Source of the DNA: a virus
Direction: 5' to 3' (one strand)
IMG/VR virus record: IMGVR_UViG_3300046048_000227
Span: 1-64,000 of that record
Length of the DNA stretch: 64,000 nucleotides
A program made the position numbers and the translations under genes. Below are positions 3,085 through 32,916 of this stretch, piece by piece. Within the stretch, counting starts at the first letter, position 1. Every line of letters starts with the position of its first letter. The notes under the pieces were generated by a model, which did not search any database, was not told the origin of the DNA, and worked only from the letters and a program-made list of their open reading frames with translations.

Positions 3085-3435
3085 ATGAGAACTTTTATTC
3101 GGTTGTACAGCCTATTCCGTACTGGGTATTTTAGTACTGTTCAGGTGATAGTGCGTGAAGAGATTATCGACAAGTCGTTGTTGGATGTGTTGTGCGACGA
3201 ATTTGATGGTTATGGGTGGGAGATTGCTGAGATGTATGCGGACACAGCGTTTGTCTCGTCAGAGAGTCATGGCGTTGACGGGCGCGAGTGTTATGGGCGT
3301 TTGTGGGCGTTTCCACCCCACACCATCCAGTACCAGAAGAACATAGTCAATAGCACGATAGCTAAGGGCGTGCTATGTGGTGAGTTGGAAAGTGAACCCT
3401 TACGTCAATGGTTAGTCAAGCAAGGTTATCTGTAA
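3085..3435 (+). CDS. Unknown phage protein
   Basis: 116 residues from the ATG at 3085, preferred over a GTG nine bases earlier because AGGGAG is then correctly spaced. Mixed composition, no domain recognised. Part of the co-directional small-gene run. Confidence 0.75.
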   Translation: MRTFIRLYSLFRTGYFSTVQVIVREEIIDKSLLDVLCDEFDGYGWEIAEMYADTAFVSSESHGVDGRECYGRLWAFPPHTIQYQKNIVNSTIAKGVLCGELESEPLRQWLVKQGYL

Positions 3436-3447
3436 GGAGCGTGTAGT

Positions 3448-3651
3448 ATGACCACCATAGCAGAGCACGGAGAAAACATACGTCGCTTGAGTACGAAGTT
3501 CGAGTTGATTCAGGCACGTATCGACAAGCTGGACGAGCGTTGGATTATATACACGCTTGAGATGGCACAAGGCGAGATCATGGTACAGCTATTCGATGAG
3601 TTGTATCAGGTGAATCAGCTATTATGTGCACGCTTAGACTTGGGAGTGTGA
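3448..3651 (+). CDS. Small coiled-coil-like protein
   Basis: 67 residues with a heptad-like pattern of Leu/Ile and charged residues. AAGGAG sits 12 bases before the ATG. It is followed after three bases by a second gene of similar size and character (3655), suggesting duplicated or paired small helical proteins. Confidence 0.7.
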   Translation: MTTIAEHGENIRRLSTKFELIQARIDKLDERWIIYTLEMAQGEIMVQLFDELYQVNQLLCARLDLGV

Positions 3652-7071: not shown

Positions 7072-7497
7072 ATGTTAGTATACAGATGGGAAGTAATCAC
7101 AGGAGAAGGGTGCTTTATGGCAGGAATTACCTCATGGTTTAGCAATAAATCACAGTACTTGTACCGTAAGTGGATGAGTACAGTCCACGACAAACTACCA
7201 TACCCGCACTATGTAAGTTGGCGAACACCACAAGGTAGGGATGTTCCGTCAGTAAACAGGTACTTCGATAAGGTGTGCCAGTACACGGCAGACTACACAT
7301 ACAGATATGCTTTTAGTTCTATGGAGCAACTACGTGAGTATATGCCTAAGAATTGGGATAAGTACCTGCTTGAGTTTGGTTGCCACCTAGTATCATACTG
7401 GGTGGATGCGGATGAGGAGGATGGGGGATTACTAGTATCCGACTCACAAGTGGTATTCCTAGAAGATTATGCAGAGTTTATCGAGGAGATAATATAA
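7072..7497 (+). CDS. Unknown phage protein
   Basis: 141 residues, rich in Tyr, Trp and acidic residues. GGAG precedes the ATG. Its stop overlaps the start of the next gene (TAATG). No domain recognised. Confidence 0.75.
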   Translation: MLVYRWEVITGEGCFMAGITSWFSNKSQYLYRKWMSTVHDKLPYPHYVSWRTPQGRDVPSVNRYFDKVCQYTADYTYRYAFSSMEQLREYMPKNWDKYLLEFGCHLVSYWVDADEEDGGLLVSDSQVVFLEDYAEFIEEII

Positions 7498-7931
7498 TGA
7501 GTAGCGTATTCGATAGAATGGCAATGGAAGAACATGTAAGGGATGCTGGCACATGGTACGATGTGTACAGTGAGAGATATGCCAACGAACTTGTTGGCTT
7601 AGATGATGGTGAATACCCTGCTACCGTGGGTACTCCTGGCGCAGACGATGAATACTTCATGGAGGACTATGATGATGTGCACTGTGTGCACGGTGCATTC
7701 ATAGGATACCCTGGAGGGGCTGATTTTATGTGTGGTCTGTGTGAGAACGGACAGGTATTCCCAAAGCAGGATAGAAAGTGGGAGTTACACATATACGGTA
7801 GAATAGTATGGACAGTATACAAGCAGGAGGACACAGCAAAATGGGATAGTTTGATCGCCTTATGTAAGAAGGAGGACGTATCTTACAACATTATTCAGCA
7901 GGAATATACATGGTGGGACACGGAGGAATAG
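7497..7931 (+). CDS. Unknown acidic protein
   Basis: 144 residues, very acidic in the first third. A CVHGAF...CGLC segment (about residues 62-82) is a possible zinc-binding site. It overlaps the previous gene by one base. Confidence 0.75.
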   Translation: MSSVFDRMAMEEHVRDAGTWYDVYSERYANELVGLDDGEYPATVGTPGADDEYFMEDYDDVHCVHGAFIGYPGGADFMCGLCENGQVFPKQDRKWELHIYGRIVWTVYKQEDTAKWDSLIALCKKEDVSYNIIQQEYTWWDTEE

Positions 7932-12580: not shown

Positions 12581-12812
12581 ACCTTTAGGAAAGGATGAAG
12601 TACCAAACTCTTTAGTTACTAGTGCACTAGACTGGATAATAAAGTATCTAACAACAACAGCGTATCCAGTTAACCACATAATAGGTCTCTCCCCTGAGTA
12701 TGACCTGCATTTGTATTGTAGAGATAACGTAGTAGGTGCAGACCTATTAGACGAGAAGTTCAACTGGTTCACTGTAATATTGTGGAACTTGGAGGTACAC
12801 GATGACGAATGA
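12573..12812 (+). CDS. Unknown phage protein
   Basis: 79 residues, hydrophobic/Trp-rich with no clear membrane span. GGAGG before the ATG; overlaps both neighbours by 8-11 bases. Confidence 0.7.
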   Translation: MPRPLGKDEVPNSLVTSALDWIIKYLTTTAYPVNHIIGLSPEYDLHLYCRDNVVGADLLDEKFNWFTVILWNLEVHDDE

Positions 12813-13164
12813 ATTTGATCCTAAAGAATGTGCCGCCGCAGTAGTGCGGAGAGGGCATATGTGCGCTGGTTGTTACTCTTCTGGTGTGTGTGGGGTAAGC
12901 AAGCTGTGGAATGATTACCAAAACAGGTGCTACTTCTATGATATTTGTGGGTTACGAGGAGATAACCTAGTAGATAATAGAGCAGTATGTGATGCACACG
13001 CTGTTGGTGTATTGTTATCTAATATCCCAGGTCTTAAGACAGAAATAGACTCTGTTATACAAGAGGTAGAGTCATATGGGGAAGACGAAGAGATAGCACG
13101 GTATGAGCACATGCACGATCCTGCTTATATTAGGGAAGTTAGGTTTGGAACAGAGGGATACTAA
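12802..13164 (+). CDS. Cys-rich protein
   Basis: 120 residues; eight Cys, seven of them in the first 60 residues, including CAGC, plus His20 and later CDAH. A multi-Cys zinc module is likely. The C-terminal half is acidic and helical. GGAGG upstream. Confidence 0.72.
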   Translation: MTNEFDPKECAAAVVRRGHMCAGCYSSGVCGVSKLWNDYQNRCYFYDICGLRGDNLVDNRAVCDAHAVGVLLSNIPGLKTEIDSVIQEVESYGEDEEIARYEHMHDPAYIREVRFGTEGY

Positions 13165-22211: not shown

Positions 22212-22497
22212 GGGGATGCAAGGCTTCGACAATGGTAATGATAGATGTACTGCGGGAAGAGCGGTGCCGATCTCTTTAACTCAGCACAACAACCATAACT
22301 GGCAAAAATTTTGCTAACCTTCTCATGATCAATGATCCTGAGCGTCACCTAGTTCCTCAACAGGCGGAGTTAGTACTGGCGTCATAATCCTGTGTAACAA
22401 AGTAATGCCCTGCTTTAGGCTGATCACCAACGATCTACTCCCGTAGATGTACTACCTTGATTGCAATTGGACTCCAGTTCGATTCTGGACATCTCCA
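22212..22497 (+). ncRNA. ssrA: tmRNA (ssrA)
   Basis: The 5' end GGGGATG pairs with CATCTCC at the 3' end; GGCTTCGAC follows the acceptor strand as in tmRNAs; the 3' domain has a perfect T-arm TCCAG-TTCGATT-CTGGA, discriminator A and encoded CC. At 286 nt it is in the normal range. tmRNA rescues stalled ribosomes and adds a degradation tag. An open frame from GGC at 22301 to TAA at 22385 encodes 28 residues starting GKNFANLL and ending QQAELVLAS, a plausible tag; the true resume codon could be further downstream in that frame. Confidence 0.93.
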
Positions 22498-22503
22498 CCT
22501 TTA

Positions 22504-24589: not shown

Positions 24590-24838
24590 ATGATTAGTGT
24601 GAAGCTAGCAGAAACTATTAAGGAAATGAAATTCCAATTAAAAGACCTTACTTATGAGAATTATACAAGTAGTCGTAACGCATTCATTGGCACAGTTAAT
24701 AATGGCGATGTGAGCTTATACCTTGTGTCATTCTCTAGAATAATAAAGGCAAATAACTTTAACAATACTTGGGCACACCCAGAGACTGAAGTGACTGTAA
24801 AAGAATGGGTTGATGTAACTATCACGGTAGACCAATGA
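24590..24838 (+). CDS. Unknown phage protein
   Basis: 82 residues with AAGGAG upstream of the ATG at 24590; the upstream frame runs through tRNA-like sequence and is ignored. Beta-rich pattern. Its stop overlaps the sulfotransferase-like gene. Confidence 0.72.
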   Translation: MISVKLAETIKEMKFQLKDLTYENYTSSRNAFIGTVNNGDVSLYLVSFSRIIKANNFNNTWAHPETEVTVKEWVDVTITVDQ

Positions 24839-25512
24839 GTAACATACTAATCTACCAGATGGGTAGGGTAGGCAGTGTCGCAATTCGCAACTCATTGAAG
24901 GCTGAAGGAGTTAAAGCTACTCATCTACATTACATAATGACAGAAGGTGAGCATCCAGCTAGGCACTTACCAGAACTAAAGGAACAAATACTTGGACGTA
25001 AGGTGCCCTTCAAAATTATTGTTTTAGTACGCGACCCAATAGCTAGGAACATATCGGCTTTCTTCAGAACTCTTGACAATAGAGAATGGACAGGGTATAA
25101 TAGGAAATTGCTGAAGAAGTTTATGACAGAGTATAACCATGTCTGGGCATTAGCTTGGTTCGATCTAGAATTTAACCCTGCTTTCTTTGATATATATGCA
25201 ACATACTATAGTCCAGAACACAGTACTTATAAATTTCCTCCAGCAGATTTTATTATCCTTCGCACAGAAGACTTAAGTAAAAAAAGAACTGCTGACCAGC
25301 TTACTAGTTTCCTAGGAATAGAAAAAATACAAATTATTAAAGCTAACGCAACAGAGTACGCTCCTAAAAGAGCACCTTTGTATAAAGACTTCTTGGATAA
25401 TGTCAAGCTACCACTACACTACGTAGAGTACATGTACAACACCCCGTACACAACACAATTCTATACAGAAAAAGAGATAGAGAGAATGACTAAGCGTTGG
25501 ACAGGAGAATAA
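24835..25512 (+). CDS. Sulfotransferase-like protein, paralogue 1
   Basis: 225 residues. IYQMGRVGS (6-14) resembles the 5'-phosphosulfate-binding loop and RDPIARNISAFF (66-77) the 3'-phosphate-binding motif of PAPS-dependent sulfotransferases. The pattern matches what I remember of the family called putative capsular polysaccharide synthesis protein. Such enzymes would move sulfate from PAPS to a sugar or other acceptor. Two paralogues follow at 25717 and 28678. Substrate unknown; overlaps the preceding gene by four bases. Confidence 0.75.
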   Translation: MSNILIYQMGRVGSVAIRNSLKAEGVKATHLHYIMTEGEHPARHLPELKEQILGRKVPFKIIVLVRDPIARNISAFFRTLDNREWTGYNRKLLKKFMTEYNHVWALAWFDLEFNPAFFDIYATYYSPEHSTYKFPPADFIILRTEDLSKKRTADQLTSFLGIEKIQIIKANATEYAPKRAPLYKDFLDNVKLPLHYVEYMYNTPYTTQFYTEKEIERMTKRWTGE

Positions 25513-25513
25513 T

Positions 25514-25729
25514 ATGAATCAAGACGTACTAAACACTTTATATTTTGAGCAGGCAGAAGCGCGCACAGTTGACCTACTTAACCAGTATTCAGGAAAGTTA
25601 ACACCACTAATAGAGAAGACGATAAAGAACGAGGTGTCTAGTAGGTACCCTACACTGACAGCAGGGGAGATCAACAGAGTGTATGGCAGAGCAGTAAGAA
25701 AATTTGGAGAGACAGTATGCCAACATTGA
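25514..25729 (+). CDS. Small unknown protein
   Basis: 71 residues, helical, one base after the first sulfotransferase-like gene and overlapping the second by 13 bases, with GGAG upstream. Its fixed place between the two suggests a shared transcript. Confidence 0.7.
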   Translation: MNQDVLNTLYFEQAEARTVDLLNQYSGKLTPLIEKTIKNEVSSRYPTLTAGEINRVYGRAVRKFGETVCQH

Positions 25730-26409
25730 TTTACCAAATGGGAAAAGTAGGGTCGATATCCTTACTTAAAGGGCTAGCTGCTAACAAAGTAATATCAACA
25801 CATGCCCATAACCTAGTGAATGTTGAAGGAGAATTTTATGTATCACGGAACAAGGCTATAAAGGAAACTATTGAACTACGACTAGACCACTGGAAAGTAA
25901 TCTCACTAGTCAGAGACCCGATAGCTAGGAACATCTCAGCCTTTGTTCATAAACTATCTAAAAAAAACTACAAAGCATTTCCTAAGTATGATCCATACGT
26001 GCTGCATAGCTTATTTGTAAATAAGTATGACCACCATACTCCGCTTAGATGGTTTGATGAAGAGTTTAACTTATTGTTTGACAATGTATACTCTCGCAAG
26101 TTTAGACATAGAGGAAAGTATTTAAAAATCACCAACGCTGAAAAAAACTATGAAGCTTTAGTACTGCGAACAGAAGATTTAAACTGGTACCATAATGTAA
26201 TAAGAAGTTTTGTTGATATACCACACATTACTATGCCCCACTCTAACTCTATGGCAGAAAAGTTCTGGTTTTATAAAGAGTTCGTTGATTTTATGCGAGG
26301 GAAGATACCACATAGTATAGTTAATGCGCTATACAGCAGTAAGTATACCGAGCACTTTTACTCAAAAGAGGAGATACGGGAATTTGTAAGGTATTGGACG
26401 CTCATATGA
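25717..26409 (+). CDS. Sulfotransferase-like protein, paralogue 2
   Basis: 230 residues, same layout as paralogue 1: LIYQMGKVGS near the N-terminus, RDPIARNISAF at 66-76, and a similar aromatic C-terminus (TEHFYSKEE). Sulfotransferase-like fold inferred from these motifs. GGAG precedes the ATG. The stop codon TGA (26407-26409) lies in tRNA-Leu(CAA), which begins at 26400. Confidence 0.75.
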   Translation: MPTLIYQMGKVGSISLLKGLAANKVISTHAHNLVNVEGEFYVSRNKAIKETIELRLDHWKVISLVRDPIARNISAFVHKLSKKNYKAFPKYDPYVLHSLFVNKYDHHTPLRWFDEEFNLLFDNVYSRKFRHRGKYLKITNAEKNYEALVLRTEDLNWYHNVIRSFVDIPHITMPHSNSMAEKFWFYKEFVDFMRGKIPHSIVNALYSSKYTEHFYSKEEIREFVRYWTLI

Positions 26410-26474
26410 AGGGAATTGGCATACCTAGCATACTCAAAATATGCTGTTTCCTGGTTCGACTCCAGGTATGAGCA
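26400..26474 (+). tRNA. tRNA-Leu(CAA), short variable region, overlaps upstream gene
   Basis: Acceptor GCTCATA/TATGAGC; anticodon arm GCATA-CTCAAAA-TATGC; T-arm CCTGG-TTCGACT-CCAGG; variable region TGTTT. Positions 8-10 are the stop codon of the sulfotransferase-like gene. Confidence 0.78.
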
Positions 26475-26475
26475 C

Positions 26476-26504
26476 TTGACAAACGTAACATACTGTGGTA
26501 GTAT
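26476..26504 (+). promoter_or_regulatory. Sigma-70 promoter
   Basis: TTGACA (26476-26481), 17 bases ending CTGTGG, TAGTAT (26499-26504), two bases after the tRNA-Leu(CAA) discriminator base. Confidence 0.76.
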
Positions 26505-26513
26505 GGATATATT

Positions 26514-26591
26514 GTGGCTTATATACTAGTACTCCTGTTGCTTGCGCTTTGTCTAATCTTTGAGATTTTTGATCATCTCAGAGGCAAGTAG
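26514..26591 (+). CDS. Possible leaderless 25-residue membrane peptide
   Basis: A GTG frame starting about 10 bases after the -10 box encodes a hydrophobic segment followed by DHLRGK. No ribosome binding site, so it would have to be nearly leaderless. Its stop overlaps the first base of tRNA-Ser(GCT). Could be chance. Confidence 0.3.
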   Translation: MAYILVLLLLALCLIFEIFDHLRGK

Positions 26592-26675
26592 GAAGGTTGG
26601 CAGAGAGGAAATGCGTCTACTTGCTAAGTAGTAGCCGTCCTAACGGGTGCAGAGGTTCGATCCCTCTACCTTCCG
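26591..26675 (+). tRNA. tRNA-Ser(GCT)
   Basis: Acceptor GGAAGGT/ACCTTCC; anticodon loop TTGCTAA; long variable arm; T-arm AGAGG-TTCGATC-CCTCT. Shares acceptor and D-arm with the two other Ser tRNAs. Confidence 0.87.
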
Positions 26676-26698
26676 CCTAGATTTAGAGGAGTTATTAT

Positions 26699-26971
26699 AT
26701 GGCAAAGAAAATGATATTAAGAAGAATGAACAACTCCCTACCTGAGTTAGTAAGCATGGTAAGAGAGAGCAAGCTAGAGAATAGAGTGTTCTTATGTAGG
26801 AAAGGGCCAGCTATCTTCACTAGTATGTTGTACTTTGCTAAGGCTGAAGACTTACTGAAAGGGGAAGAACCAAACATTCCTGGAATTGGTATGCTATTTT
26901 TTGTAACAGAAAAAGTCAGGCTCCCAGTAGGAGATGCAGATGAAGTAAACCTTATTTTATTAAAAGATTAG
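26699..26971 (+). CDS. Unknown phage protein
   Basis: 90 residues, basic N-terminus, otherwise mixed. GGAG upstream. Its last codons and TAG stop (26969-26971) fall inside the first helix (P1) of the RNase P RNA. Confidence 0.73.
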   Translation: MAKKMILRRMNNSLPELVSMVRESKLENRVFLCRKGPAIFTSMLYFAKAEDLLKGEEPNIPGIGMLFFVTEKVRLPVGDADEVNLILLKD

Positions 26972-26985
26972 TGTAGTCTTGCGCT

Positions 26986-27001
26986 GGTCTAAGTTTAGAC
27001 T
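26986..27001. promoter_or_regulatory. Palindromic element copy 4, also RNase P helix P3
   Basis: GGTCTAAGTTTAGACT is the fourth copy of the AGTCTAAATTTAGACT family. Here it sits where helix P3 of RNase P RNA must be, so its dyad symmetry may serve RNA structure, protein binding, or both. Confidence 0.6.
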
Positions 27002-27042
27002 AGAGGAAGCTCAGGACTGCTCCGCTTAATGTAGGAGGATAT

Positions 27043-27240
27043 ATGACAGGTGAGTGTACCCACGAACACACAGCAACCTTTACTTATAATGACTGGGTAC
27101 ACCCAGAAACTAGAGAGGAAGTATGTCTAGACTGTCAGAAATCTGTTAGCACTACAGAGGCAGCGACACCAATAGACTCAGTGGGTGAGCGGCACGACAA
27201 GTCTGGTAGGTGGCACCCGCAAGGGACGGCACAGCCGTAG
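27043..27240 (+). CDS. Possible zinc-binding protein nested in the RNase P RNA gene
   Basis: 65 residues with a good AGGAGG upstream. The N-terminal half reads like a real protein: CTHEH (5-9) and VCLDCQ (28-33) could form a zinc site. The C-terminal half is encoded by sequence that also has to form conserved parts of RNase P RNA. Either the gene has been fitted into the RNA's specificity domain or the frame is fortuitous. Confidence 0.5.
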   Translation: MTGECTHEHTATFTYNDWVHPETREEVCLDCQKSVSTTEAATPIDSVGERHDKSGRWHPQGTAQP

Positions 27241-27287
27241 ATAGATGCAAGACCACGACAGAATCCTGGCTATCGCACTAATCTTTA

Positions 27288-27316
27288 TTGACTTATCTTA
27301 CCATGTGTGGTATAAT
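27288..27316 (+). promoter_or_regulatory. Strong sigma-70 promoter for a tRNA block
   Basis: TTGACT (27288-27293), 17 bases ending TGTGG, TATAAT (27311-27316), four bases after the RNase P RNA end and nine before tRNA-Cys. Confidence 0.85.
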
Positions 27317-27324
27317 TACTTACT

Positions 27325-27396
27325 GACCTCGTAGCCAAGTGGGAAGGCGGGTGGTTGCAACCCATCTAAGCGCAGGTTCGATTCCAGCCGAGGTCT
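27325..27396 (+). tRNA. tRNA-Cys(GCA)
   Basis: Acceptor GACCTCG/CGAGGTC; anticodon arm GGTGG-TTGCAAC-CCATC; T-loop TTCGATT with one A-A in the T-stem. Confidence 0.83.
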
Positions 27397-27399
27397 CTA

Positions 27400-27471
27400 G
27401 CACCTATCGCCTAAAGGACGGGCACTTGCCTTCGAAGCTTGTCTGTGCAGGTTCGATCCCTGCTAGGTGCT
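27400..27471 (+). tRNA. tRNA-Arg(TCG)
   Basis: Acceptor GCACCTA/TAGGTGC perfect; D-stem GCCT/GGGC; anticodon loop CTTCGAA with two T-T mismatches in the anticodon stem; T-arm GCAGG-TTCGATC-CCTGC. Confidence 0.78.
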
Positions 27472-27476
27472 CTTAC

Positions 27477-27550
27477 GCTCCCGTAGCTCAGAGGACTAGA
27501 GCAGTTCTCTTCTAAAGAAAAGGTCACAGGTTCGAGTCCTGTCGGGAGTG
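27477..27550 (+). tRNA. tRNA-Arg(TCT)
   Basis: Acceptor GCTCCCG/CGGGAGT (one G-U); D-stem GCTC/GAGC; anticodon loop CTTCTAA; T-arm ACAGG-TTCGAGT-CCTGT. Confidence 0.85.
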
Positions 27551-27553
27551 CCT

Positions 27554-27703
27554 ATGAATGATGAATATAGAATAGTTTTTGACTACGAAATTGGTATGGA
27601 AGTCATAGAAATAGTGCCTCCTGCTGATCCTAATATATTAGAGGTATCAGAAGAGGCATTCAATGACTCCTTAGCAGAGTATATAGACAGTCCCTGTGGT
27701 TGA
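27554..27703 (+). CDS. Small acidic protein between two Arg tRNAs
   Basis: 49 residues, acidic. The only ribosome-binding-like sequence is GGGAG, which belongs to the acceptor of tRNA-Arg(TCT) five bases upstream. Its 3' end overlaps tRNA-Arg(GCG) by 14 bases. Confidence 0.55.
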   Translation: MNDEYRIVFDYEIGMEVIEIVPPADPNILEVSEEAFNDSLAEYIDSPCG

Positions 27704-27762
27704 GCAGGACACAACACTACCCTGCGAAGGTAGAGACACAGGTTCGATCCCTGTCAGGGACT
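27690..27762 (+). tRNA. tRNA-Arg(GCG), overlaps upstream gene
   Basis: Acceptor GTCCCTG/CAGGGAC; anticodon arm CTACC-CTGCGAA-GGTAG; T-arm ACAGG-TTCGATC-CCTGT. A G34 Arg tRNA is unusual in bacteria, which normally use ACG (inosine) for CGN. Confidence 0.8.
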
Positions 27763-27768
27763 CTCTCA

Positions 27769-27842
27769 GGCTGTGTCGTCTACTTAGGTTAGGACAGGAG
27801 GCTTTCAACCTCCAGAACAGGGTTCGAATCCCTGCATAGCTA
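27769..27842 (+). tRNA. tRNA-Glu(TTC)
   Basis: Anticodon arm GGAGG-CTTTCAA-CCTCC; T-arm CAGGG-TTCGAAT-CCCTG; acceptor GGCTGTG/CATAGCT with two G-U pairs. Confidence 0.83.
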
Positions 27843-27871
27843 CTATAATGAAAATACAAAAGGAAGATGCG

Positions 27872-28129
27872 ATGACAAACAGAACAATGTGCGACGTACT
27901 GCAAGAGATGCGTAAGCTAAACAAAACTCGTAACTACAGTGCACTGGCAGGTCTTATTGAAGAAGCACAGATACTTGGCAATCGCATGGAAGCAGCAGTG
28001 TACGATAAACATGATGTAGAACATTACAACAAAGAAAGAAGAAGATTAAAAGCAGAGCTAAAAAAACTTAAAGATACAAAAGATGCGCTAGAACTTGAGA
28101 TCAGTGAACTAGGAGGAGACGATGGTTAG
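27872..28129 (+). CDS. Unknown coiled-coil protein
   Basis: 85 residues, mostly charged helix with a Lys/Glu-rich coiled coil (about 50-80). The ATG at 27872 is favoured by AGGAAG six bases upstream; an in-frame ATG at 27848 is possible. It overlaps the next gene by eight bases. Confidence 0.7.
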   Translation: MTNRTMCDVLQEMRKLNKTRNYSALAGLIEEAQILGNRMEAAVYDKHDVEHYNKERRRLKAELKKLKDTKDALELEISELGGDDG

Positions 28130-28550
28130 TAGAGCTACAGTATACTTAGCTGGCGGTATGCACAGTGACTGGCGAGAACAAGTTAAGATGGGAGTACAGC
28201 ACACAGTAAACTTTTTTGACCCCTGCACACATGGATTTAAATCAGAGGATGCTTATACCTTTTGGGACATACAAGCTATAAGAAAGTCTGACATAGTGTT
28301 TGCTTACATGGAACCAGATAACCCGTCCGGTGTAGGTTTGGCATTTGAAATAGGGTATGCTGTAGCTTTAGGACGTAGTGTTATTTTTGTGGATCAATCT
28401 TCTGAAGAAACTAGAAAATACTGGGGTATGTGTAGGGCAGCTAGCACTGTTACCACTACTAGTATAACTGAAGGTATTCACCTACTAAACTACACGATTG
28501 ACTTGATAACAGTAGACCCAAGTGTTGGAATATTACATCCTCCTGGGTAA
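28122..28550 (+). CDS. Nucleoside 2-deoxyribosyltransferase-like protein
   Basis: 142 residues. YLAGGM at the N-terminus, SDIVFAYMEPDNPSG and FEIGYAVALG (Glu76 in the catalytic position) follow the pattern of the nucleoside 2-deoxyribosyltransferase family. These enzymes exchange bases on deoxyribose or hydrolyse (deoxy)nucleoside monophosphates, which would feed phage nucleotide metabolism. GGAGG precedes the ATG. Its TAA stop (28548-28550) lies in tRNA-Pro copy 2. Confidence 0.78.
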   Translation: MVSRATVYLAGGMHSDWREQVKMGVQHTVNFFDPCTHGFKSEDAYTFWDIQAIRKSDIVFAYMEPDNPSGVGLAFEIGYAVALGRSVIFVDQSSEETRKYWGMCRAASTVTTTSITEGIHLLNYTIDLITVDPSVGILHPPG

Positions 28551-28615
28551 GGTGTTGCAGGATACATACCCGATTTGGATTCGGGAGTGCGTAGGTTCGA
28601 TCCCTACTGCCCAGA
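28543..28615 (+). tRNA. tRNA-Pro(TGG), copy 2, overlaps upstream gene
   Basis: Acceptor CTGGGTA/TGCCCAG; anticodon arm CCCGA-TTTGGAT-TCGGG; T-arm GTAGG-TTCGATC-CCTAC. Same anticodon as the copy at 21558 but a different body. Confidence 0.84.
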
Positions 28616-28677
28616 CTATATTTACTTATGTTTTAATTATATATGATTACGTGAAGTAATAACTGGAGAAGAAACTT

Positions 28678-29637
28678 ATGGGAAATAAGATGACTAAGTA
28701 CCAATACTTTATTACCTACGAGATACCAGACGCCGACATAAGTAGTTGGCAAGTAATAACCACAGAGCGACCCATTAAAACAACAAAGGATGTGTCTGCT
28801 ATCTTATCTCAAATTTTAATAATGGCAGAAGCTGATCCACCAATCAAGCCACTGAGCATATCATACTTGAGTGAGTACAACATAGAGCTACCCGATAGTG
28901 TCATACTATACCAGATGGGTAGAGTTGGTTCAGTATCTTTGAGATCAGCGTTAGAAAGTTTAGAGATACCAACAAGGCATGTACATTACCTAGCAGACTA
29001 CGGGGAGTACGAATCCAAGCACGATCCTGCTTTCATGAAAAGGATTAAGACAGAAGAAAGAGTATGGACAGTAATAAGTGTTGTAAGAAATCCTATAGCT
29101 AGAAACTTATCTGCTTTCTTCTGGAATATTAATAAGTATTACCCAGACATTGATAAGTACCCAGACTATAGCCCACCATTACTCGACGCTTTCTTATATA
29201 AGTATCCACACTTTACTACTTCTGATTGGTTTGATAACGAGCTTAACAAAGTATTTGACTACGATATATACTCTAAACCTTTCGAGCACAGTATAGGATA
29301 CACCTTATACGAGCGTCTAGTAGAGAAGCCTAAGTTTATTCTGGCTGTAATAAGAACAGAAGATATATCACGTTCTGCAAACAGCATGTTTAGCGATCTA
29401 CTAGGAGTGAAGCCAAAAGACCCAATAGGTAATGTTAACCTAACACATAAAAGAAAAGCAGTGTCTAGAGCTTTCTTAGATTTTCATAAAGAAGCAGTAC
29501 TACCTAAATATTACTTAGACAATATGTTAAACACTAAGTACTGCCAACATTTCTATACTGATGAGGAGAGGGGTAAACTATATGATTACTGGACTAGCAA
29601 TCCTGCTAGCAGAGAGGGATATTCGTCTAATGGATAG
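28678..29637 (+). CDS. Sulfotransferase-like protein, paralogue 3, with N-terminal extension
   Basis: 319 residues. An extra ~75-residue N-terminal domain (unrecognised) precedes the same core as paralogues 1 and 2: LYQMGRVGS (78-86), VRNPIARNLSAFF, IRTEDI and a YCQHFYTDEE end. RNP replaces the usual RDP. GGAG is upstream of the ATG. The last ~7 codons and stop overlap tRNA-Glu(CTC), so coding and tRNA constraints share the same bases. Confidence 0.75.
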   Translation: MGNKMTKYQYFITYEIPDADISSWQVITTERPIKTTKDVSAILSQILIMAEADPPIKPLSISYLSEYNIELPDSVILYQMGRVGSVSLRSALESLEIPTRHVHYLADYGEYESKHDPAFMKRIKTEERVWTVISVVRNPIARNLSAFFWNINKYYPDIDKYPDYSPPLLDAFLYKYPHFTTSDWFDNELNKVFDYDIYSKPFEHSIGYTLYERLVEKPKFILAVIRTEDISRSANSMFSDLLGVKPKDPIGNVNLTHKRKAVSRAFLDFHKEAVLPKYYLDNMLNTKYCQHFYTDEERGKLYDYWTSNPASREGYSSNG

Positions 29638-31749: not shown

Positions 31750-32916
31750 ATGACTTTAGTATTCGGCAAGCACGATGAGAGCACATTAGAGCAGATGGAA
31801 CTAGCAACTTCAGATGAGTCAGTAGTAGCGTCTGTGCTATGTGCTGATGGGCACCTAGGGTACTCAGTACCTATCGGCGGAGTAATAGCCTACGATGGTA
31901 TGATCAATCCTGCTGGCGTTGGTTACGACATAGCTTGTGGCAACATGGCTGTGCGCCTACAAAATCAGGACGGTTTATCTGATCTTGTCGTGCACAATAT
32001 AGCAGAAATTATGGACACCATTGTTGATGAGATTGCCTTTGGGGTAGGGAAAGAAAATAAATACCCAGTAGACCATGACTTATTCAACTCTTCTGCTTGG
32101 CATATTGACGCAGTAAGCCCACTAAAAGAAACAGCCCATAAACAGCTAGGTACTGTAGGTTCAGGCAATCACTTTGTAGATATATTTATTGATGACGATG
32201 GAAGTATCTGGATAGGTGTTCACTTTGGTTCACGAGGGCTAGGGCATAAAATAGCTACCCACTATGTAAAAGAAGCTGGAGGTAAGCAGGGAGCACTAGC
32301 AGTACCAGCCCTACTTGATGAAAATTCTTACGCAGGAGAAGAGTATATAGCTGCTATGAACTTAGCTGGTAACTATGCTTATGCTGGTCGTGAATGGGTA
32401 GTCAACAAAGTTCTCGATATCATAGGTGCTGAAGCTGCCCACACAGTACACAATAACCACAACTTTGCGTGGAAAGAAAAACACTTCGGAGAACATTTAT
32501 GGGTAGTGCGTAAAGGCTCCACTCCAGCATTTCCAGGTCAGTACAGTTTTATTGGTGGCTCCATGGGTGATGTGTCTGTAATTGTAAAAGGCAGAGAAAC
32601 ACCCCTGAGCGAAAGAGCTATGTACTCTACAGTACACGGTGCTGGCAGAGTAATGTCCCGAACTGAGGCGGCTGGTAAAACTAAATATAACAAAACAACT
32701 AAGCAAAGAGAGCGAGTATCAGACGGTGCTATTTCTAAAGAAGACATGCTAAGTAGATTAAAAAACTTTGGTGTTGAGCTACGAGGAGGAGGACTAGATG
32801 AAGCACCTCAAGCATACCGCGATTTAGCTACAGTACTTCAGCACCAAAAAAATACAATAGACATAGTAACTGTACTGAACCCTATAGGCGTAGCTATGGC
32901 AGGGCAAGGTGTGTAA
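31750..32916 (+). CDS. rtcB: RtcB RNA ligase
   Basis: 388 residues, full length for RtcB. ADGHLGYSVPIGG (32-44), VGYDIACG with Cys63 (metal ligand), GSGNHF, and HGAGR with His296 (guanylylation site) are the family's active-site motifs. RtcB joins RNA 3'-phosphate or 2',3'-cyclic phosphate ends to 5'-OH ends using GTP and Mn2+. In a phage rich in tRNAs it could repair host- or toxin-cleaved tRNAs. AAGGAG precedes the ATG. It directly follows tRNA-Ser(GGA) and leads a short operon with 32916 and 33170. Confidence 0.93.
   Translation: MTLVFGKHDESTLEQMELATSDESVVASVLCADGHLGYSVPIGGVIAYDGMINPAGVGYDIACGNMAVRLQNQDGLSDLVVHNIAEIMDTIVDEIAFGVGKENKYPVDHDLFNSSAWHIDAVSPLKETAHKQLGTVGSGNHFVDIFIDDDGSIWIGVHFGSRGLGHKIATHYVKEAGGKQGALAVPALLDENSYAGEEYIAAMNLAGNYAYAGREWVVNKVLDIIGAEAAHTVHNNHNFAWKEKHFGEHLWVVRKGSTPAFPGQYSFIGGSMGDVSVIVKGRETPLSERAMYSTVHGAGRVMSRTEAAGKTKYNKTTKQRERVSDGAISKEDMLSRLKNFGVELRGGGLDEAPQAYRDLATVLQHQKNTIDIVTVLNPIGVAMAGQGV

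Follow-up and report, generated by a model that had tools for sequence, protein, structure and literature searches.

The locus studied here raises the question of whether a phage encodes an RNase P RNA of its own and, if so, in which form. RNase P RNA is a near-universal ribozyme of the host. The window (the whole stretch of DNA analysed, 64,000 nucleotides in length) is part of a 101,694-base IMG/VR virus entry (IMGVR_UViG_3300046048_000227). For its tRNA region, a sequence-only reading had proposed a phage-encoded RNase P RNA, compact at about 320 nt, and had suggested that it processes phage tRNA precursors or takes the place of the host ribozyme.

The RNA gene extends from P1 to P1 at positions 26965–27284 of the plus strand. 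The Rfam model RF00010 matched 26965–27288 with 51.3 bits (E = 5.1e-15, 451 nt searched). This value is below the RF00010 gathering score of 100 bits, so that default Rfam annotation misses the gene; at curated thresholds, the Rfam list for the window comprised tRNAs and a tmRNA, 30 RNAs in all, and no RNase P. A second covariance model (R1), built from RNAs of other phages that lack the specificity domain (S-domain) and with the window excluded, matched 27003–27272 with 69.1 bits (E = 4.8e-15). The window contained the pattern from CR-I to CR-V a single time, and 100 shuffles did not contain it at all. We conclude that 26965–27284 is an RNase P RNA. The absence of a covariance-model match, or the loss of P2 or P4 pairing in related phages, would have refuted the sequence-only reading. 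Neither was observed, given the RF00010 match and the pairing kept in the relatives, and its central claim of a phage-encoded RNase P RNA held strongly.

All structural elements of the RNA were located on the plus strand. The 5' strand of P1 (AGATTAGTG, 26965–26973) pairs exactly with CACTAATCT at 27276–27284, and that of P2 (GTCTTGC, 26976–26982) pairs exactly with GCAAGAC at 27247–27253. P3 is a hairpin at 26984–27003 (CUGGUCUAAGUUUAGACUAG), assigned from sequence and fold. CR-I together with the 5' strand of P4 (GAGGA-AGCUCAGGA, 27003–27016) is invariant, or almost so, in 34 phage relatives; within it, the P4 strand AGC-U-CAGGA (27008–27016) pairs exactly with TCCTGGCT at 27264–27271, leaving U27011 bulged. 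CR-V (ACAGAATCC) starts at 27258, and CR-V with the 3' strand of P4 (ACAGAAUCCUGGCUAU) occupies 27258–27273. Exact pairing of P1, P2 and P4, the bulged U and the CR-V block had all been claimed before and were confirmed at these places.

P5 (CUGC, 27017–27020) pairs with GCAG at 27160–27163, the P6 pseudoknot (CCGCU, 27022–27026) with AGCGG at 27188–27192 and P7 (UGUAG, 27030–27034) with CUACA at 27152–27156. The corresponding pairs in the virus contig L005 are CUAC/GUAG, CUGCU/AGCAG and GGUAG/CUACC. The P15–P17 region (27167–27212) is supported by sequence, the RF00010 match and covariation and comprises P15 (27167–27170/27209–27212), P16 (27175–27178/27200–27203) and P17 (27181–27183/27193–27195). 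It contains a GGU motif in J15/16, which we take to be the expected CCA-binding site. In place of P8–P14 there is a hairpin with an insert of 111 nt (27034–27144) between conserved GGAG and GUUAGC. The catalytic core P1–P7/P15–P17 is thus intact and the specificity domain P8–P14 is absent. The earlier description of the RNA as compact was an understatement: the domain is gone, and an open reading frame, which had not been seen, takes its place. The 'P18-like hairpin' described earlier exists at the P18 position (ACGGC-ACA-GCCGU, 27226–27238), but most phage relatives lack it, and it carries the stop codon of the reading frame.

Among the proteins of the window are a phage DNA polymerase (phrog_17, E = 3.5e-120), an Erf-like annealing protein/recombinase and one with a weak DnaB-like match. 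The window has 33 tRNAs and a tmRNA, and the RNase P RNA gene sits in the tRNA/tmRNA array. The gene is flanked by tRNA-Ser(GCU) upstream (26591–26677, plus strand) and tRNA-Cys(GCA) downstream (27325–27397, plus strand). In L005 the same RNase P RNA gene has the same two neighbours, the same place in the tRNA array and a matching tRNA order. The tRNAs adjoining the gene in the window are without encoded CCA, yet the GGU motif is kept. No close relative was found with DNA-polymerase peptide patterns across viral contigs. When pieces of the window were compared with isolate phages by blastn and tblastn, only tRNAs or nothing matched.

Host DNA in a virus-labelled contig, through contamination or misassembly, could be invoked, as genes for RNase P RNA usually belong to hosts. 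This explanation is all but excluded by the DNA polymerase and recombinase genes of the window and by the occurrence of the same RNase P RNA gene in the diverged L005 phage as well as in over 50 additional virus contigs. Moreover, the pattern of the reduced RNA (mini RNA) gave only two matches in 84,980 prokaryote genomes. One of them was false (L089; model score of 15 bits, no tRNAs) and the other true (L090; 120 bits), the latter on a contig with a tRNA array from a Flavobacteriales MAG; that this contig is itself phage is conceivable. Covariance matches, phage neighbour genes, synteny with L005 and compensatory changes together leave little doubt that the gene belongs to the phage.

Several other features of the surroundings were recorded. 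An RtcB RNA ligase gene (31750–32916) lies within the tRNA array and may act in tRNA repair. The tmRNA at 22212–22499 has an unusual 28-residue tag ending in LVLAS, and the L005 phage likewise has a tmRNA, with a tag ending in TPQVV. Three genes with NKWYS capsular-polysaccharide/sulfotransferase-like domains are found at 24835–29637, at most 5 kb from the RNase P RNA gene. A tRNA with a CUA (amber) anticodon at 27477–27552 is a possible suppressor tRNA. Stop-codon recoding by this tRNA was rejected for the calling of open reading frames, as TAG terminates 22 of 70 of them (about one third).

Relatives were identified by pattern scans of viral contigs with chance matches removed, which left about 70 RNase P RNA loci. 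S-domain-less RNAs of about 200 nt occur in about 55 other virus contigs, nearly all of them in tRNA arrays. With respect to the specificity domain, the loci are of three kinds. The first has a full or near-full domain; within it, L001–L004 reach the Rfam cut-off, and L069–L071 and L079–L085 have a shorter domain. The second consists of about 45 loci without any, in which CR-I through CR-V span about 146–171 nt. In the third, the domain is lost and an insert occupies its site (window, L005, L067, L072, L073, L076, L077, L086, L087 and L094). L005 is matched by model R1 only in part. Three uncultured, unannotated phage records of 595–642 kb (LR756502, LR756511 and LR745206) also carry one of these RNAs each, with model scores of 116, 100 and 103 bits, respectively. 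Sub-threshold matches to the Rfam RNase P families were obtained for L017 (46.4 bits), L052 (46.1 bits), L028 (35.8 bits) and L053 (28.1 bits); the minis L017 and L052, like the window RNA, do not reach the RF00010 gathering score. RF00373 matches some phage minis weakly. All 28 phage records with a match contain one copy each.

Used by itself, the 16-mer GAGGAAGCTCAGGACT matched coding sequence by chance in most cases, but it also retrieved four different mini RNAs from five contigs. A scan for a CR-I to CR-V spacing of 274–304 nt found nothing. Two further pattern matches were judged not to be RNase P, L088 for want of a model match and L039 from its sequence, and neither L075 (18 bits) nor L078 was retained.

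Individual relatives showed peculiarities of their own. In L017, a tandem second copy of the RNase P RNA (minus strand, 3218–3523), truncated at its 3' end (50 bits), lies directly upstream of the intact one, and the tRNA array also has a GOLLD RNA at 7430–7900. The hairpin inserts of L094 (minus strand, 353–654; GGGTTCGAATCCC...CACCA) and L073 (minus strand, 2321–2564; GGTTCAAATCC) resemble parts of a tRNA. It is possible that these two RNAs carry a tRNA-like substrate in their own loop. Homologous inserts of about 80 nt, without an open reading frame, occupy the same RNase P site in two distinct phages, L076 (minus strand, 12736–12969) and L077 (minus strand, 1295–1528).

For an assessment of structural conservation, the helices expected for a class A catalytic domain were mapped to 34 aligned S-domain-less RNAs, and pairs were counted. 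Standard pairs were found in 90.9% of cells, compared to 31–42% with the partner strand slid, and 247 cells were changed on both sides, compared to 78 in shuffles. Reading the structure from one member favours the true over the slid pairing, but this accounts for neither the effect size nor the double changes. P4, P5 and P7 were paired in 98–100% of cells. The P6 pseudoknot, which lies outside the covariance model and to which the alignment was not fitted, was paired in 72.5% of cells, with covariation in five of five pairs. Covariation also supports the catalytic-domain helices P1, P2, P3 and P5. The own pairing of P1 yielded -16.1 kcal/mol, compared to -10.1 kcal/mol when strands were swapped between sequences; the values for P2 were -10.6 and -7.8 kcal/mol. 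In the phage minis, P7 is followed by a short hairpin bordered by conserved GAG and GUU.

The comparison with L005 points in the same direction. The two phages are well separated, with a DNA polymerase identity of 55%, and P1, P2, P5, P6, P7, P15, P16 and P17 all differ in sequence between them with pairing kept; the P1 of L005 is unlike that of the window and likewise perfectly paired. The re-pairing of helices despite this divergence indicates selection on the structure. Alternatively, the gene could be a decaying RNase P pseudogene with a transcript that now mainly serves as leader and body of a small mRNA, which could account for the lost S-domain, the coding frame that crosses the core and the low Rfam score. 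The eight helices that changed and still pair speak against it, and we regard this explanation as very unlikely.

The RNase P RNA genes are closely linked to tRNA genes. At least three tRNAs lie within 5 kb in 64 of 70 loci, and in 34 of 70 a tRNA starts no more than 60 nt downstream of P4, typically after 15–25 nt and right after P1. On the other side, tRNA-Ser of L005 ends three bases ahead of P1. This linkage suggests that the RNA is probably released by tRNA processing, which remains an inference. A sigma-70 promoter-like site (TTGACT-17-TATAAT, 27288–27316, plus strand) lies between the RNase P RNA gene and tRNA-Cys in the window. It is near-perfect, and the equivalent site of L005 (TTGACA-17-TATAAT) is a perfect sigma-70-type site. 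Conservation of this site 3' of the gene suggests separate transcription of the downstream tRNA array. The 31 phage records, whose sequences may be incomplete, encode no RnpA (PF00825), with the control positive in 10 of 14 genomes; the host protein is therefore the likely partner.

A different use of the folded RNA is that of a decoy or modulator, which would bind host RnpA or pre-tRNAs and alter host tRNA or mRNA processing instead of maturing phage tRNAs. In its favour are the retention of the catalytic domain, to which RnpA is expected to bind, the lack of an encoded RnpA and the loss of the S-domain, which binds the tRNA elbow. However, the active-site elements (CR-I, the bulged U of P4, CR-V and the GGU motif) show virtually no variation among dozens of diverged phages, and a decoy would need no intact active site. 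The position of the genes within tRNA arrays also speaks against a decoy, which we consider improbable.

The insert of the window RNA contains the start of an open reading frame at 27043–27240 (plus strand), which codes for 65 amino acids (MTGECTHEHTATFTYNDWVHPETREEVCLDCQKSVSTTE...) with a C-x-H...C-x2-C arrangement, ends with TAG at 27238–27240 and has a homologue in L005. The conserved structural GGAG is followed by GAUAUAUG; the reading frame starts at that ATG, and GGAG reads as a Shine-Dalgarno sequence. The distance between ATG and GGAG is identical in the window and L005. From the ATG, the frame is open for 65 codons in the window and 67 codons in L005, and the chance of an open frame this long is 1–4% in each sequence alone. 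The two peptides are 44% identical over aligned columns and have C-x-H...TFTY...CLDC in common, with all four putative metal ligands kept. An open reading frame conserved between the two phages is thereby shown, with the restriction that its conservation rests on two sequences only. Among 29 aligned codons, 17 nonsynonymous and 4 synonymous differences were counted, and the SVSTTE stretch of likeness lies in RNA-constrained sequence.

Searches of the peptide in Pfam, PHROGs, NCBIfam and PDB gave no convincing family match, and the AlphaFold model was of low confidence (pLDDT 53), too low for a structure search. The designation as a putative zinc ribbon is inferred only from the four ligands, without data on zinc binding. 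Alternatively, the reading frame might be untranslated and the insert an arbitrary spacer. This is supported by non-coding inserts at the same site in L067, L073, L076, L077, L086, L087 and L094 and by the single relative of the reading frame; no other insert among the relatives has a comparable one from a nearby start. Against a spacer stand the same position of the ATG, the protein alignment score of 60 in frame 0/0 compared to at most 32 in the 17 other frame pairs tested, a score reached by none of 5000 amino-acid shuffles, and the 36-nt difference between the inserts from GGAG to GUU (111 nt in the window, 147 nt in L005). The retained ligands likewise disfavour it, and the inserts are not unusually structured (z of -1.2 in the window and +0.6 in L005). 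We therefore hold the spacer to be unlikely and translation of the nested frame to be likely, although the latter is inferred in the absence of expression data.

Taken together, the most plausible explanation is that of an active phage ribozyme that matures phage tRNAs with host RnpA and also serves as an mRNA. The earlier claim that it processes phage tRNA precursors remains the best inference; activity, the RnpA partner, substrates, timing and translation are inferred. In this model, the bacterial-type RNase P RNA, reduced to its catalytic domain, would be transcribed together with the phage tRNA/tmRNA array and would most likely borrow host RnpA. The resulting hybrid holoenzyme would cut the 5' leaders off phage tRNAs, and perhaps tmRNA, during infection. 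Where a tRNA follows 15–25 nt downstream, as in many relatives, its cleavage would also form the 3' end of the RNase P RNA itself. The site of the lost specificity domain would act as an insertion site, occupied by a bare hairpin or another insert in relatives and, in the window and L005, by a small putative zinc-ribbon protein gene for which the structural GGAG would double as the ribosome-binding site. The reading frame extends through the core, up to 27240 in the window and into J15/16 in L005. Its translation would unfold the ribozyme core, so that one transcript could be ribozyme or mRNA, but never both at once. A bolder reading, in which the nested zinc-ribbon protein takes over the function of the S-domain by binding to its own RNA or to the substrates of that RNA, with one transcript supplying both parts of a phage RNase P, is doubtful.

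If the preferred model of a tRNA-maturing phage ribozyme is true, viruses carry their own tRNA-maturation ribozyme. As naturally occurring minimal RNase P RNAs of the bacterial type, the phage RNAs would be of use in mechanistic and structural studies, and they would extend S-domain loss beyond Pyrobaculum. A gene nested in the vestigial domain of a ribozyme would be an unusual ribozyme-or-message transcript and gives a clear test case for how a virus divides a single RNA between both uses. No report of phage-encoded RNase P RNA was found in the open-access literature searched; subscription journals and bioRxiv were outside the scope, and priority is not established. Phage RNase P RNA is not mentioned in the huge-phage study (PMC7162821), and tRNAs and tmRNA were the only RNAs reported from an Rfam screen of megaphages (PMC8172020). 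As curated Rfam thresholds miss reduced forms, phage minis are likely under-annotated.

Compared to known systems, the window RNA resembles bacterial class A RNase P RNA (rnpB, RF00010) in P1–P7, the P6 pseudoknot, P15–P17, CR-I, CR-V, the bulged U of P4 and GGU in J15/16. It differs in being phage-encoded, in the missing P8–P14 with a reading frame in their place, in P18, which is uncertain in the window, and in a score below the Rfam gathering value. Membership among RNase P RNAs is thus met, whereas class A in the strict sense fails on the specificity domain; class A is the parent family. With regard to the insert, GOLLD RNA is known to host a tRNA, and group I introns host endonuclease genes in peripheral loops (see also PMC6582537). 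Like these, the window RNA is structured, lies in a phage tRNA region and accommodates an insert in one of its peripheral loops. They belong to other RNA families, however, and the peptide carried by the RNase P RNA has C-x-H/C-x2-C and no recognisable endonuclease.

Loss of the S-domain has a parallel among archaea in the Pyrobaculum RNase P RNA of type T (type P), in which the S-domain is degenerate or missing, a P6 has been modelled and P18 is lacking (Lai et al. 2010, cited in PMC5839562 and PMC4919922). The phage minis share these features as a structural parallel. Type T is archaeal and cellular with archaeal protein partners, whereas the phage RNAs lie in tRNA arrays, and tmRNA genes and the sigma-70-like promoter point to bacterial hosts. 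No nested gene is described for type T in PMC5839562 and PMC4919922. An artificial counterpart also exists: the C-domain of the E. coli RNA alone cleaves with and without C5, with a P6-like contact being important and P18 dispensable (PMC5839562). The phage RNAs, which kept P6 and mostly lost P18, have the same set of features and the same domain boundaries as these constructs, of which they represent the natural version.
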